DNA of 64,000 bases. Origin: Saccharopolyspora soli (GTDB taxonomy: Bacteria > Actinomycetota > Actinomycetes > Mycobacteriales > Pseudonocardiaceae). Below, one piece after another: positions 32,023 through 63,514 of this stretch (within the stretch, counting starts at the first letter, position 1; the number at the start of each line of letters is the position of its first letter). Location of the stretch: positions 124,001-188,000 of the forward strand of contig NZ_JALBWV010000002.1 in assembly GCF_022678645.1 (NCBI RefSeq), written 5' to 3'. The translations under genes and the position numbers were made by a program. The notes beneath the pieces were generated by a model. That model made no database searches. It was not told where the DNA came from and saw only the letters and a list, made by a program, of their open reading frames with translations.

Positions 32023-33597
32023 TTACCGCTCACCGCTGGTGTCGCCGGTTGATGCGTCACCGGTTGCGGAGCCGGTTGACGTGTTGGGTGCGTTTCGCGT
32101 CGTTGTCGCGGTGCCGTCGGTGCCGTCGCTCGACGTTGAGTTCTGTTGCTGGGATGTCGAGGTCGATCTTGGCCTGGTTGTGGCGGGAGCCTCTTGCTGC
32201 TGGTAGGTCGGCGTCGCGTTCTGCGACGGCCTGGTGATCTGCTGTGGGGTGCCGGTCTGCGGGGAGTTGGTGGTCTGTCGGGGTGTGGTGATCTGCGGGG
32301 AGTTGGTGCTCTGCTGCGGGGTGCTGATCTGCGGGGAGTTGCCGTGTCGAGGTGCGGTGCCCTGCGACGAGTTGGTGTTTTGCCGGGGTGTGGTGATCTG
32401 TGTCTGTCCGGTGTTTTGCCGGGGTGTGGTGGCCTGCGGGGAGCCATTGGACTGTTGGGTTCGGGGACTTTGTTGGGGCCTGGCGGTCTGCTCGGGGTTG
32501 CTGGCTTGTGGTGGCCCGGTCGCCTGTCGAGGTCCGCTGGTCTGTGGTCGCGTGGCGGTTTGTGACGGTGCGCTGGCCTGTTGTGGATCAGTGGCCTGGC
32601 GAGTCGTGTTGGACTGCGGTGGTCCCGTGGCCTGTCGGGGAGTGGCGGTCTGCGGGCTGGCGGTTTGCGACGGCGTGGTCACTTGCGTCGGTGTGGTCGT
32701 CCTTGGCGGCGTGGTCACCTGTGTCGGTGTGGTCGCCTGTGTCGGTGTAGTGGTTTGCGGGGGCCTGCTGGTCTGCGGCGCCGTTGTGGGCGCAGTGGTG
32801 GGGTCGTCCGCGGTTTGCGGCGGCCTGCTGGTCGCGGGTGTCGGCCTGGGCGACTGGGTTTCGTTGGGGCCGGTGGTTTGCTGGCCTTGTGCCGGATCAG
32901 CGGTCGTCGTCCGCGGCGGTGTTGCCAGCGCCGGTGCGTCGAGAGGTGCAGCGCCTGTTCCAGTGGTGTTCGGTGACCTCGACGTGGGAGGCGCGTTCGT
33001 GGTGGCTGGCGCAGGTGGCGTGGCAGGCGTGTTCGACGTGGCTGGCACACCCGACGGCGTCGTTGCGGGTGGGGCCAATGGTGTCTGGGCGATGATCGGC
33101 TCGCGGGGCGCCGCTGCTTCAGGGGAGTAGATGCGTTGTCGCGGTGCTTGGGGCTCCGGCGGCGGCTTCACGGTGTGCTCCACGAACGGCGGGATCCGGT
33201 TGAAGATGTCCGGCGGGATCAGGCCGAGGAACGGATCCGCGAACGGTGCGGTCAGGGTGTAGCTGCCCGCCGCCACCGCGGCGCCCAGCGCCGCCGTCGC
33301 GAGGGAGACGCGGAAATGCTTGCGCAGCGGAATCTTTCGGGGCTCCTGCGGCGGAACCGGTGAAACGAGCGGTTCGCTCACCAGCCAATGCCGGATCGCC
33401 GCGGTGTCTCGCGAGTGCGACGCCCAAACCCGGCCGAGCCAGCTCGTCACGTTGCACAGGTGGTCTTGCAGCGCGGCTACCGGTAGCGGGCTCGCCGACA
33501 GCGGCCCGTCGCGCCGAACCGGGTTGAGCTGTTCGGTGTTGCGGATGAGGCTGTCGAGCCGTTCCTGGAGGATCACGGGGTCGGTTGGGGCGGACAT
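32023..33597 (-). CDS. Bitopic membrane protein with long Thr/Gln/Pro repeat domain
   Basis: 524 aa. Residues about 1-90 are helical and cytoplasmic, with tryptophans in VTSWLGRVWASHS. One membrane helix lies at about 94-114 (VSLATAALGAAVAAGSYTLT). From about 150 to the end the protein is almost only Thr, Gln, Pro, Ser, Asn and Ala, in degenerate 8-10-residue units such as QITTPRQTTNSPQ and QATTPRQNTGQTQ. That part would be extracytoplasmic, extended and possibly glycosylated (inference). The ATG lies just after the stop of the upstream small gene (33601), so the two are coupled. DNA in the repeat part is low-complexity, so copy number may vary. Confidence 0.75.
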   Translation of the reverse strand: MSAPTDPVILQERLDSLIRNTEQLNPVRRDGPLSASPLPVAALQDHLCNVTSWLGRVWASHSRDTAAIRHWLVSEPLVSPVPPQEPRKIPLRKHFRVSLATAALGAAVAAGSYTLTAPFADPFLGLIPPDIFNRIPPFVEHTVKPPPEPQAPRQRIYSPEAAAPREPIIAQTPLAPPATTPSGVPATSNTPATPPAPATTNAPPTSRSPNTTGTGAAPLDAPALATPPRTTTADPAQGQQTTGPNETQSPRPTPATSRPPQTADDPTTAPTTAPQTSRPPQTTTPTQATTPTQVTTPPRTTTPTQVTTPSQTASPQTATPRQATGPPQSNTTRQATDPQQASAPSQTATRPQTSGPRQATGPPQASNPEQTARPQQSPRTQQSNGSPQATTPRQNTGQTQITTPRQNTNSSQGTAPRHGNSPQISTPQQSTNSPQITTPRQTTNSPQTGTPQQITRPSQNATPTYQQQEAPATTRPRSTSTSQQQNSTSSDGTDGTATTTRNAPNTSTGSATGDASTGDTSGER

Positions 33598-40795: not shown

Positions 40796-41431
40796 GTGCC
40801 CGACCGACAACCGACCCGACAACCGGCGCTGAAGGCAGCCAGCCTGGCGTCGCGGGCCTCGTTGTGCCCACCAGGCCGCGCCGAGGTCGATCGGCCTCCC
40901 GGTCATGCTCCGTCCTGGCGCAAGCGGCGGGTCCTGCTGCTCAACACCACGTTCGAGCCGCTGACCGCGTTGCCGCTGCGCCGGGCGATCGTGCTGATCG
41001 TTTGCGGCAAGGCTGAAGTGGTGCACGGTGACTCGGCGGGCATGGTGCTGCATTCGGCTACCAGCAGTGTCGAGGTCCCATCCGTGATCAGGTTGAGCAA
41101 CTTCGTGCGAGTGCCGTACCGGGGCCGGGTGCCGTTGACCCGAGCGGCTTTGATGCTTCGGGACAACTACCGGTGCGTGTACTGCGGCGCTCGCGCCGAA
41201 ACAATAGATCATGTCGTGCCGCGCAGCCGGGGCGGCCCGCACACGTGGGAGAACTGCGTCGCCAGCTGCACCAAGTGCAACCACCGCAAGGCGGACAAGA
41301 CGCTGAGCGAGTTGGGCTGGCGCCTACCGGTGGCACCGCACGCGCCGCGCGGGCGGCACTGGCGGTTGCTGGCGGGACTGTCCGAAACGGACCCGTTGTG
41401 GCTGCCGTACCTGGGTGAACCCGCGGCCTGA
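40796..41431 (+). CDS. HNH endonuclease family protein
   Basis: 211 aa from GTG 40796, behind GGAGGTG; the open frame upstream to 40583 has no ribosome site. After a basic, disordered start, RRVLLLNTTFEPLTALPLRR at about 50-69 and IVLIVCGKAEVV match the N-terminal part of the common actinobacterial HNH proteins. The nuclease motif is YRCVYCGARAETIDHVVPRS near 132-151 (CxxC, then DHVxP with the HNH histidine), followed by GGPHTWENCVASCTKCNHRK near 152-171 (second CxxC). Zinc is held by the four cysteines. The role is unknown; a housekeeping rather than restriction function is usual for this family. Confidence 0.88.
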   Translation: MPDRQPTRQPALKAASLASRASLCPPGRAEVDRPPGHAPSWRKRRVLLLNTTFEPLTALPLRRAIVLIVCGKAEVVHGDSAGMVLHSATSSVEVPSVIRLSNFVRVPYRGRVPLTRAALMLRDNYRCVYCGARAETIDHVVPRSRGGPHTWENCVASCTKCNHRKADKTLSELGWRLPVAPHAPRGRHWRLLAGLSETDPLWLPYLGEPAA

Positions 41432-41501: not shown

Positions 41502-41969
41502 TCAACTGATCCGCACACCTCGCTGGCAGCTGATCCGCACACCCTGCCGAGCGCTGATGCGCACGCCGCGCTGAGCACTGATCCGCACGCCACGCTGGCT
41601 GCTGATCCGGACACCATGCTCGCGTCCGCTGATCCGGACACCGCGCTGGCCGCTGATGCGGACACCGCGGCTGATCCGCACACCCTGTCGACCACTGATC
41701 CGCACACCCTGTCGACCACTGATCCGCACACCCTGTCGACCACTGATCCGCACGCCGCGCTGGCCGCTGATCCGGACACCGCGGCTGATCCGCACGCCGC
41801 TGGAGATCCGGACGCCCTGTTCGCGTCCGCTGATCCGAACGCCGCGCTCGCTGCTGATGCGCACCCCGCGGCCCCGGCCGCTGATCCGGACTCCGTGTTC
41901 AAGCAGTGGCCGGTGAGTCGCCGGAAGAGTGAGGGCGCTGCTCTGAGTGGCGGTTTCGATGATCGACAT
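41502..41969 (-). CDS. GVRIS pentapeptide multi-repeat protein, function unknown
   Basis: 155 aa, ATG at 41969 behind GGGAGG at six bases. About 25 non-repeated N-terminal residues (MSIIETATQSSALTLPATHR, then PLLEH) are followed by 17 exact copies of GVRIS. They are separated by linkers of one, three or four residues (R, S, GRQ, GQR, SER, GREQ, GREH), and the protein ends on GVRIS. Unit lengths are 18, 24 or 27 nt, always keeping frame. Gly is GGT/GGC/GGG/GGA, Val GTG/GTC/GTT, Arg CGG/CGC, Ser AGC/AGT/TCC, so nearly all variation is synonymous on this strand and would be non-synonymous on the other. I know no family like this. Irregular spacing argues against a solenoid; a multi-core peptide precursor or a binding-motif array is possible. 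No modifying enzyme is adjacent. Confidence 0.7.
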   Translation of the reverse strand: MSIIETATQSSALTLPATHRPLLEHGVRISGRGRGVRISSERGVRISGREQGVRISSGVRISRGVRISGQRGVRISGRQGVRISGRQGVRISGRQGVRISRGVRISGQRGVRISGREHGVRISSQRGVRISAQRGVRISARQGVRISCQRGVRIS

Positions 41970-42365
41970 TGTGTGCCTCCCGCATTCAATTGCCGCTTTG
42001 AACGCACGTGATCAAATATGCAAGACCCATACAGGTGAAAAACTATGATCAGGAAGGCCCGGGAACAAGCCGCCAAGTCGCCGCGTATTGCAACCGTCTG
42101 GTTGGACTCCATTCGGTCGCAATGGTTACTCTGAACGAGTTACCTTGAGTGATATATCGCACACTTGACTAGTCACCGTACGTAGTTTCGTGGGGTTTTT
42201 GATCGGTTCCCACCAGCAGAAACCACGTCGGGGGCGCCCCGAGCCCGTCTTCGAGCCACTCGAACGTGACGTATCGGCGGGGCGCCGGATGTCGGTCACC
42301 AGTGCCGTTCGTGCGCCTGCTAGGTCCCGGCGCACGACGGAGAGGTCATCGGATACCGTACTCCC
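41970..42365. other. AT-richer divergent intergenic region
   Basis: The 396 bp upstream of the GVRIS gene are less GC-rich than their surroundings. They include ATCAAATATGCAAGACCC at about 42010-42027 and the imperfect palindrome at 42124-42144. Promoters for both the GVRIS gene and the small membrane protein at 42366 must be here. I see no open frame with a ribosome site. Confidence 0.5.
42124..42144. promoter_or_regulatory. Near-palindrome GGTTACTC-N5-GAGTTACC
   Basis: Eight-base arms with one mismatch flank TGAAC. The element is about 155 bp upstream of the GVRIS start, next to an AT-rich GAGTGATATATCGC stretch. It looks like an operator or promoter-proximal dyad; the binding protein is unknown. 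Confidence 0.35.
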
Positions 42366-42626
42366 GTGACTGTCGTGGAGACTGTGCTCGCCTTGGCGGT
42401 GATCCCAGCGGCCATTTATGGCCTGATCGTGCTCATCGCGATGTGGCCCAGGCTCACCCGCCCGCGTTATCGCGCGGGACAGGAGTGGGACTTCGCGCCG
42501 GTGTTCTGGGTGGCCAATCCAGCGGGTCTGAACACCGCCGCACCGATGGCAGATGTGGACTCGGAGGTCGCGCCAGAGGATGCGCGGCCCAGCACGGCTC
42601 GGGGAGGCGCACGTGGCAGCTGGTGA
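42366..42626 (+). CDS. Small membrane protein with C-terminal cytoplasmic tail
   Basis: 86 aa from GTG 42366. One hydrophobic helix at about residues 4-27 (VETVLALAVIPAAIYGLIVL) is followed by a basic WPRLTRPRYR segment and then GQEWDFAPVFWVANPAGL. The tail is acidic. The same W-x-PVFW-NP pattern occurs in small proteins of related genomes next to DUF5130 genes, by my recollection. Its last 14 bases overlap the DUF5130 start, so the two are coupled. Function unknown. Confidence 0.72.
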   Translation: MTVVETVLALAVIPAAIYGLIVLIAMWPRLTRPRYRAGQEWDFAPVFWVANPAGLNTAAPMADVDSEVAPEDARPSTARGGARGSW

Positions 42627-63238: not shown

Positions 63239-63329
63239 AAAACCCCCAAAAGATCAAGAACCCGAACCCCGACCCAACCCCCCAAGCCTGACCCAACGCC
63301 CCGACAAACCCAAAAACCTTTTCACCCCA

Positions 63330-63514
63330 CAACCGCGAAGCAGCACCACGCACCTAGGACAGCCGCGAAGCGGCACCACACTCCAGCACCAGCCGAAACA
63401 GCCGCGAAGCAGCACCAATCCCCAGGCCAGCCGCGAAGCGGCACAACCCACCCGAGACCACCACGACAGCCGCGAAGCGGCACAACTCCCCAGGACAGCC
63501 GCGAAGCGGCACCA
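63330..63514. repeat. Six tandem 19-bp hairpin repeats with alternating spacing
   Basis: Consensus CAGCCGCGAAGCGGCACCA; each contains the stem GCCGC-GAA-GCGGC. Starts are 63330, 63360, 63399, 63428, 63467 and 63496, so steps are 30, 39, 29, 39, 29. The alternation gives a unit of about 68 bp. Copies 1 and 3 have a substitution in the right arm. Intervals are 10-20 bp, too short and too regular for CRISPR spacers. Confidence 0.9.

Follow-up and report, generated by a model that had tools for sequence, protein, structure and literature searches.

Arrays of near-identical pentapeptides at a fixed locus in Pseudonocardiaceae, uniform within a genome and different between genera

Multi-core RiPP and pheromone precursors carry a short head followed by identical cores, with spacers and a copy number that vary. 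The array gene described here shares all of these traits with them, but its locus has no enzyme or exporter, and one type of unit, GTRVT, is separated by spacers of a single variable residue. By analogy, the nearest described behaviour would be that of CsoS2, a disordered carboxysome scaffold that bears (V/I)(T/S)G triplets at eight-residue intervals (PMC11365436). The array protein resembles CsoS2 in that GVRISGxx carries ISG at eight-residue spacing, a likeness borne by GVRISGxx stretches, SVRIT being followed mostly by Ala and GTRVT by Arg or Ala, and in that both proteins are repetitive, disordered and multivalent, with low AlphaFold confidence for each (PMC11365436). The CsoS2 repeats, however, also have conserved Tyr, Cys and Lys and are accompanied by separate N- and C-terminal domains (PMC11365436), whereas no carboxysome shell or Rubisco genes were found among the neighbours of the array, and sequence homology is not among the likenesses. 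In mycobacteriophages, octapeptide-repeat proteins with DUF7666 (Frankie gp59 and Squirty gp51; tblastn E 1e-10 for Frankie) have a [DG]SA[RH]V.A. repeat that resembles the SVRIT spacing DSVRITAR, but their units are variable, their period is a regular eight residues, they end in DUF7666, and no shared head was seen. The repeats of VgrG/DUF2345, NosD and tail spikes have a similar Gly-beta-turn texture, but the window protein falls below the cut-offs of those profiles and its orthologs match inconsistently.

The window, i.e. the whole stretch of 64,000 nucleotides that was analysed, comes from the 9.35 Mb genome of Saccharopolyspora soli. It contains a minus-strand gene that starts at an ATG (41967-41969) and stops at a TGA (41502-41504), the features of which are given in Table 1. 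Reading of the ORF bore out the preliminary description of 17 exact GVRIS units behind a 25-residue head, with linkers of one, three or four residues; the spacers run, in order, 4, 3, 4, 1, 1, 3, 3, 3, 3, 1, 3, 4, 3, 3, 3 and 3 residues. The strong ribosome site that was claimed is present, and the AT-rich upstream region is real and corresponds to a promoter conserved across Pseudonocardiaceae. Elsewhere in the window there is a cluster of short, REP-like palindromes (GCCGCGAAGCGGC, 63328-63514), and a 524-aa ORF (32023-33597, minus strand) with a long, repetitive tail rich in Thr, Pro and Gln (TTPxQ-like) that gave several tandem-repeat matches.

Table 1. Coordinates of the repeat gene, its control region and its neighbours in the window, and of two phage repeat proteins used for comparison.
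Feature	Position	Strand	Basis
GVRIS repeat protein gene, 155 aa	41502..41969	-	ORF; matches in all 22 genomes of the genus that were searched, the window's own among them
25-residue head MSIIETATQSSALTLPATHRPLLEH	41895..41969	-	conservation in an alignment of 22 GVRIS orthologs
Array of 17 GVRIS units with 1-, 3- or 4-residue spacers	41505..41894	-	terminates exactly with the last GVRIS
Ribosome-binding site GGGAGG	41976..41981	-	upstream of the GVRIS gene
Conserved block TTTTTCACCTGTATGGGTCTTGC, at and after the inferred transcription start	42020..42042	-	promoter alignment
Predicted promoter -10 word TAGTTT	42040..42045	-	promoter alignment
Predicted promoter -35 word TTGTTC, within conserved TTGGCGGCTTGT	42063..42068	-	upstream-region comparison
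HNH endonuclease gene, convergent neighbour and locus border (part taken as query; the listed ORF is longer)	40898..41431	+	Pfam HNH; synteny
ctaJ (aa3-type cytochrome oxidase subunit CtaJ), divergent neighbour and other locus border	42366..42626	+	NCBIfam NF050118; synteny
Mycobacteriophage [DG]SA[RH]V.A. repeat proteins joined to DUF7666	L169:1412-2317, L171:1298-2368		

The 17 units are encoded by 11 distinct DNA versions, with Gly as GGT (9), GGC (6), GGA (1) or GGG (1), Val as GTG (10), GTC (6) or GTT (1), Arg as CGG (14) or CGC (3), Ile as ATC (17), and Ser as AGC (11), AGT (5) or TCC (1). These counts agree with the earlier observation of four Gly, three Val, two Arg and three Ser codons beneath a constant peptide, and the single TCC, against AGC or AGT elsewhere in the array, is a two-step change. 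When the units were compared pairwise in all frames, the GVRIS frame held 295 synonymous and 0 non-synonymous nucleotide differences, as against 203, 235, 295, 219 and 74 non-synonymous differences in the other five, the last of these beside 161 synonymous ones. The same bias was observed in 91 distinct proteins, the window's included, from loci chosen for spread and strength of match rather than at random, some of which may have miscalled starts. Within-array codon-pair differences were overwhelmingly synonymous in every unit type counted (synonymous to non-synonymous, 21601:321 for GTRVT and 18031:725 for GVRIS), and one 51-unit array (L111) spells GTRVT in 40 distinct DNA versions. Across 11 close pairs, in which the aligned units need not be strictly orthologous, the cores differ by 286 synonymous and 9 non-synonymous codons in 1201, and the spacers by 154 synonymous and 222 non-synonymous in 973; the heads differ by 6 synonymous and 34 non-synonymous codons. 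The pentapeptide is held nearly identical within a genome by selection, whilst the spacers are free to change, and the selection on a minus-strand protein proposed beforehand is strongly supported by the 295:0 ratio, the family-wide synonymous bias and the contrast between core and spacer.

That the array has no protein function, being a DNA repeat or minisatellite that is open by chance, would agree with the tandem repeat visible in the DNA and with the one array among the 91 in which the frame is broken. This is a GTRVT array (L096, genome G281) with six units in the ORF and seven more exact units out of frame past the stop, which may reflect a decaying gene or an assembly error; in the other 90 proteins, loss of the frame with the DNA repeat kept, the pattern that had been named as speaking against a protein, was absent. 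The DNA-repeat-only explanation is refuted by the synonymous and non-synonymous counts, in the window and family-wide, and the contrast between cores and spacers and the conservation of promoter, ribosome site and start also argue against it, such that we give it almost no credence. Nor is the GVRIS array a matter of chance, since all 22 same-genus genomes searched, the window's own included, gave a match, one of them (G016) to a three-unit remnant.

Arrays sought in other Pseudonocardiaceae were found, together with variant units at the same site. In the 91 proteins the unit is GVRIS in 38, GTRVT in 32, SVRIT in 13, GVRIH and GVRVT in two each, and GVRIE, GTRIT, GVRVN and GIRVN in one each, with GIRVT and GVRIN at two further loci. 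The core pattern is [GS][VTI]R[IV][STNHE], in 2 to about 60 copies per protein, and units hardly vary within one genome but differ from genus to genus. By the family pattern, which presupposes Arg at position 3, 1686 of 1705 recognised units have the dominant sequence of the array to which they belong; a looser rule (four of five residues, in arrays of at least five units) gave 55 single deviations, 25 of them at position 4. Spacers of one, three and four residues occur 481, 510 and 419 times, those of two and five residues 40 and 27 times, and 14 of the 91 arrays have any two-residue spacer, although these lengths are partly inherited through duplication. The gap at length two is common to GVRIS, SVRIT, GTRIT and GVRIE. 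In GTRVT, lengths one and four dominate, and two and three are equally rare (22 each), whereas GIRVN, GVRVT and GVRIH depart from the spacing rule. Certain spacers are as long as 11-27 residues. At position 6, arrays of GVRIS, SVRIT, GTRIT and GVRIE mostly have a small residue (G/A/S), the one after SVRIT being mostly Ala, and GTRVT arrays mostly have Arg or Ala. The proteins are rich in Arg and poor in Lys, 58 of the 91 having no Lys at all, and the median net charge per 100 aa varies from -1.0 in SVRIT to +16.9 in GTRVT, so that bulk charge is not the conserved property.

The distribution of the family was followed with protein searches and with a sequence-only promoter model built from 39 sequences. 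A protein search of 390 genomes of the family matched 136, many of them weakly. Twelve loci from other genera were read, and in the weakly matched ones the promoter and position were kept and the unit was different. The promoter model matched 272 of 386 family genomes, in 37 of 46 genera, a lower bound because some genomes that lack a promoter match do carry arrays. In the window's own genome its next-best match was at E 0.13, and among 394 genomes of the class it found four, namely the window's own, one of the same family (G040) and two weak ones (G634 and G763). Fourteen genomes, namely G378 and 13 that had given no promoter match at the threshold used, were re-examined by way of the HNH neighbour. 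An array or remnant is present in five (G378, GTRIT; G278, GTRVT; G025, GIRVT; G375, GVRIN; G016, GVRIS), and none was seen within about 1.5 kb in the other nine. Arrays were immediately apparent in 46 of the 50 loci L080-L129 (of which L080 and L128 are one genome); L092 has 12 GTRIT units that the promoter search word had missed, two GVRIS remain in each of L106 and L113, and L099, a second match in G227, yielded no array. A class-wide search of 364 genomes with a GTRVT member as query matched 33 genomes at E 1e-6. Of 12 of these loci that were opened only that of G040 was real, the other 11 being low-complexity proteins or wrong frames by the look of the most repetitive frames. A Kitasatospora locus (L044) was dropped as a simple GGCGTCA repeat, and no array was present at a second match in G000 (C97; L002). 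In G013, array matches lie at two contig ends (L022/L031 at the end of contig C5, and G013:C6:13-282), and the assembly probably breaks within the array.

Most of the Pseudonocardiaceae sampled carry the gene at a constant site, with the array between the HNH gene and ctaJ. Thirteen loci of about 12 kb have the order MscS-type channel, prolyl oligopeptidase, HNH, array, CtaJ, DUF5130, response-regulator-like gene and M1 peptidase, although L040, L042 and L043 yielded no response-regulator-like gene and L042 no MscS either. At ten shorter loci (L110, L114, L119, L121, L131, L132, L136-L138 and L141) MscS adjoins HNH with no oligopeptidase between them, and CtaJ was not found in the flank of L134, L142 and L143; this comparison covered the loci other than L133, L135 and L140. 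Three genomes (G219, G228 and G380) have a clean empty site, the aligned HNH and CtaJ parts being 60-127 bp apart, which indicates that the repeat gene is dispensable in whole lineages.

The comparison of upstream sequences indicates that the repeat gene has its own conserved, sigma-70-like promoter. Of the 91 upstream regions, 90 could be parsed, and in these a TTG word is followed by a TAnnnT word after 17 bp (87) or 18 bp (3), within the 15-19 bp that the script examined, and TAnnnT is followed in turn by the block TTTCACCTGTAyGG..CTTGC, from which L020 departs. An alignment of 39 promoters has 26 invariant columns; for those in TTTCACC and CTTG the invariance is partly built in, because the search word by which members were chosen contained them. 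The distance from TTTCACC to the start codon is 68-73 in 75 of 91, and other values may stem from miscalled starts. A structured leader RNA was rejected, with no Rfam match up to E 5 and two predicted pairs that show no covariation. An ORF that is present in several relatives (MESNQTVA.RGDLAACS, 42010-42112, minus strand) was once taken for a leader peptide; it covers the -35 word and is probably not translated. Further upstream (42149-42162, minus strand) there is a GTG-N8-CAC site, which we take to be CRP-like, with GTAAC direct repeats just downstream, and a GTG-N7-TCAC word is found upstream in 18 of 20 same-genus loci examined. The GTG-N8-CAC site may serve the array gene or the divergent ctaJ.

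The unit type follows the gene tree of the HNH neighbour. On a tree of 101 rows, in which arrays of fewer than three units were labelled as having none, the unit types need 17 changes, as compared with a mean of 54 when shuffled and no value as low in 200 shuffles. This clustering, together with the constant site, points to vertical inheritance of the array gene, and whole arrays have switched to another pentapeptide several times. The GVRVT array of G351 is nested among GTRVT relatives and varies very little in its DNA (GGC in 12 of 12, position-4 GTC in 12 of 12), as would be expected if one changed unit had recently been re-amplified. Arrays have shrunk to 2-4 units in several lineages (G225, G073, G016, G101, G224, G248 and G375). 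The route of switching may thus be collapse followed by re-expansion. Arrays shrunken to 2-8 GVRIS were also observed at L060, L061, L105, L106 and L113 (genera g7, g18 and g21), some of them followed by unrelated tails, as if the array were being lost.

Searches of Pfam, NCBIfam, PHROGs, PADLOC, Rfam and the PDB gave no credible family match, including no anti-phage defence profile from PADLOC for three proteins at E 0.01. Several Pfam, PHROGs and PDB matches do pass nominal E-values, but these differ from ortholog to ortholog. The window protein lies below Pfam cut-offs, DUF2345 and NosD included; of seven relatives, three exceed some cut-offs for differing families and four have no match at E 0.01. 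Weak PDB and Pfam matches to tail fibre, central spike, NosD and DUF2345, all of which we take to be beta-helical, stand beside others to a ribosomal protein, sarcoglycan and a DNA polymerase clamp, and look compositional. Plasmid and phage searches returned compositional or beta-repeat matches only (one plasmid and two phage records were opened). In a literature search whose coverage excluded most subscription papers, letter matches to GVRIS, SVRIT and GTRVT were judged incidental from the listings, and nothing else relevant was found apart from general papers on amyloid and stickers. With that limit of coverage, the earlier statement that no described family is known agrees with the profile databases and the literature, and the gene family is apparently undescribed.

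AlphaFold, given 22 aligned GVRIS orthologs, predicts no helix and 16 strands, which fall on nearly all of the units. Its confidence is very low (mean pLDDT 45.9, pTM 0.33, no residue above 70), and it establishes neither strands nor their packing. This model fits beta-prone units that have no confident fold, and does not decide between a flexible scaffold and a folded beta-solenoid with a regular Arg face for binding a polyanion or surface. The dominant periods are 6, 8 and 9 residues, and these, the predicted strands and the weak matches to tail fibre, central spike, NosD and DUF2345 are what a solenoid might produce. The three periods are, however, mixed within one array and, with the spacers of 11-27 residues, break a regular coil, the matches vary between orthologs, and a pLDDT of 46 is low for a folded protein, so that we regard a solenoid as improbable.

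We favour a cytosolic sticker-and-spacer scaffold, a tentative reading of function that falls a little short of an even chance. The protein would stay in the cytosol, and its stickers, in which beta-branched residues alternate with one Arg, would presumably associate as beta-strands, among themselves and/or against a single partner surface, to give a multivalent assembly or condensate. The conserved property is the beta-prone word and its uniformity. If stickers pair homotypically, uniformity within a genome and freedom between lineages are predicted, because stickers that must match would disfavour mixed arrays. A new sticker could then take over only in an array that is first reduced to a few units and later grows again, and such collapse and re-expansion would explain why units are uniform within genomes and different between them. 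Against a purely flexible scaffold, the rarity of two-residue spacers suggests more order than such a protein needs, and uniform stickers, taken alone, would also be the mark of a peptide product.

The main rival to the scaffold is such a product, a multi-copy precursor in which the head is a leader and the units are excised, and perhaps modified, as genus-specific pentapeptides that act as signal or antibiotic, the copy number setting the dose. Identical cores with free spacers, variable copy number and a genus-specific core have the usual look of a precursor, a head (median 28 residues in the 91 proteins) precedes the identical cores as a leader would, and a precursor, too, predicts units that match within a genome and vary freely between lineages. 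Among the neighbours in the 13 loci of about 12 kb, however, neither a modification enzyme nor an exporter was found (Pfam/NCBIfam), and no hydrophobic signal-like or membrane stretch was found in the 91 proteins, none of which has a 19-residue Kyte-Doolittle mean above 1.6. The 418 single variable-residue spacers of GTRVT arrays would make a poor processing site, there are no recognisable cut sites, and the cores have no Pro; we consider a precursor unlikely, albeit the foremost of the alternatives.

In a docking array or sponge, each unit would be a short linear motif for one pocket of one partner, which is clustered or titrated, and the unit would co-evolve with that partner. Arg between beta-branched residues resembles a beta-augmentation motif, and multivalency with possible rapid turnover would suit a titrating protein. 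A change of pocket would nevertheless oblige all units to follow, yet complete switches have been repeated; a strong preference in spacer length is unexpected, and no candidate partner was found in a search short of genome-wide, which leaves docking rather unlikely. Among the three functions put forward in the preliminary description, an array of interaction motifs fits best, whereas the lack of an enzyme or exporter among the neighbours counts against a modified multi-core peptide and the lack of a hydrophobic signal-like stretch in all 91 proteins against a secreted adhesive.

The C-terminus may bear on how long some of the scaffold proteins persist. It reads [FYL][ASTV]LA[AG] in 18 of the 91 proteins, like the ends of tmRNA tags, which are FALAA or YSLAA in 13 of 13 tested genomes, and in these members it could be a degron, with an ssrA-like end that would direct the protein to ClpXP and make it short-lived. 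This idea is not general, since Ser is the last residue of 19 of 38 GVRIS proteins, that of the window among them, and these lack an LAA-like end.

The gene family is widespread in a family of antibiotic producers and has no credible match to a library family. It may represent a new class of bacterial protein polymer, built of identical self-recognising (or peptide-signal) units whose word is uniform per lineage and is replaced as a complete set between genera, i.e. a genus-private sticker or signal code at one fixed locus, a proposal that we hold with clearly less than even confidence. Selection on a short motif has left a very clear natural record in these arrays, in which the spacers form a built-in control inside the same gene. 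The arrays also make it testable how all units of such a repeat can change in concert and what obliges them to match. If the scaffold reading is true, the arrays would belong to an as yet undescribed assembly in Pseudonocardiaceae; if the precursor reading is true, the product would be a new genus-specific peptide signal.
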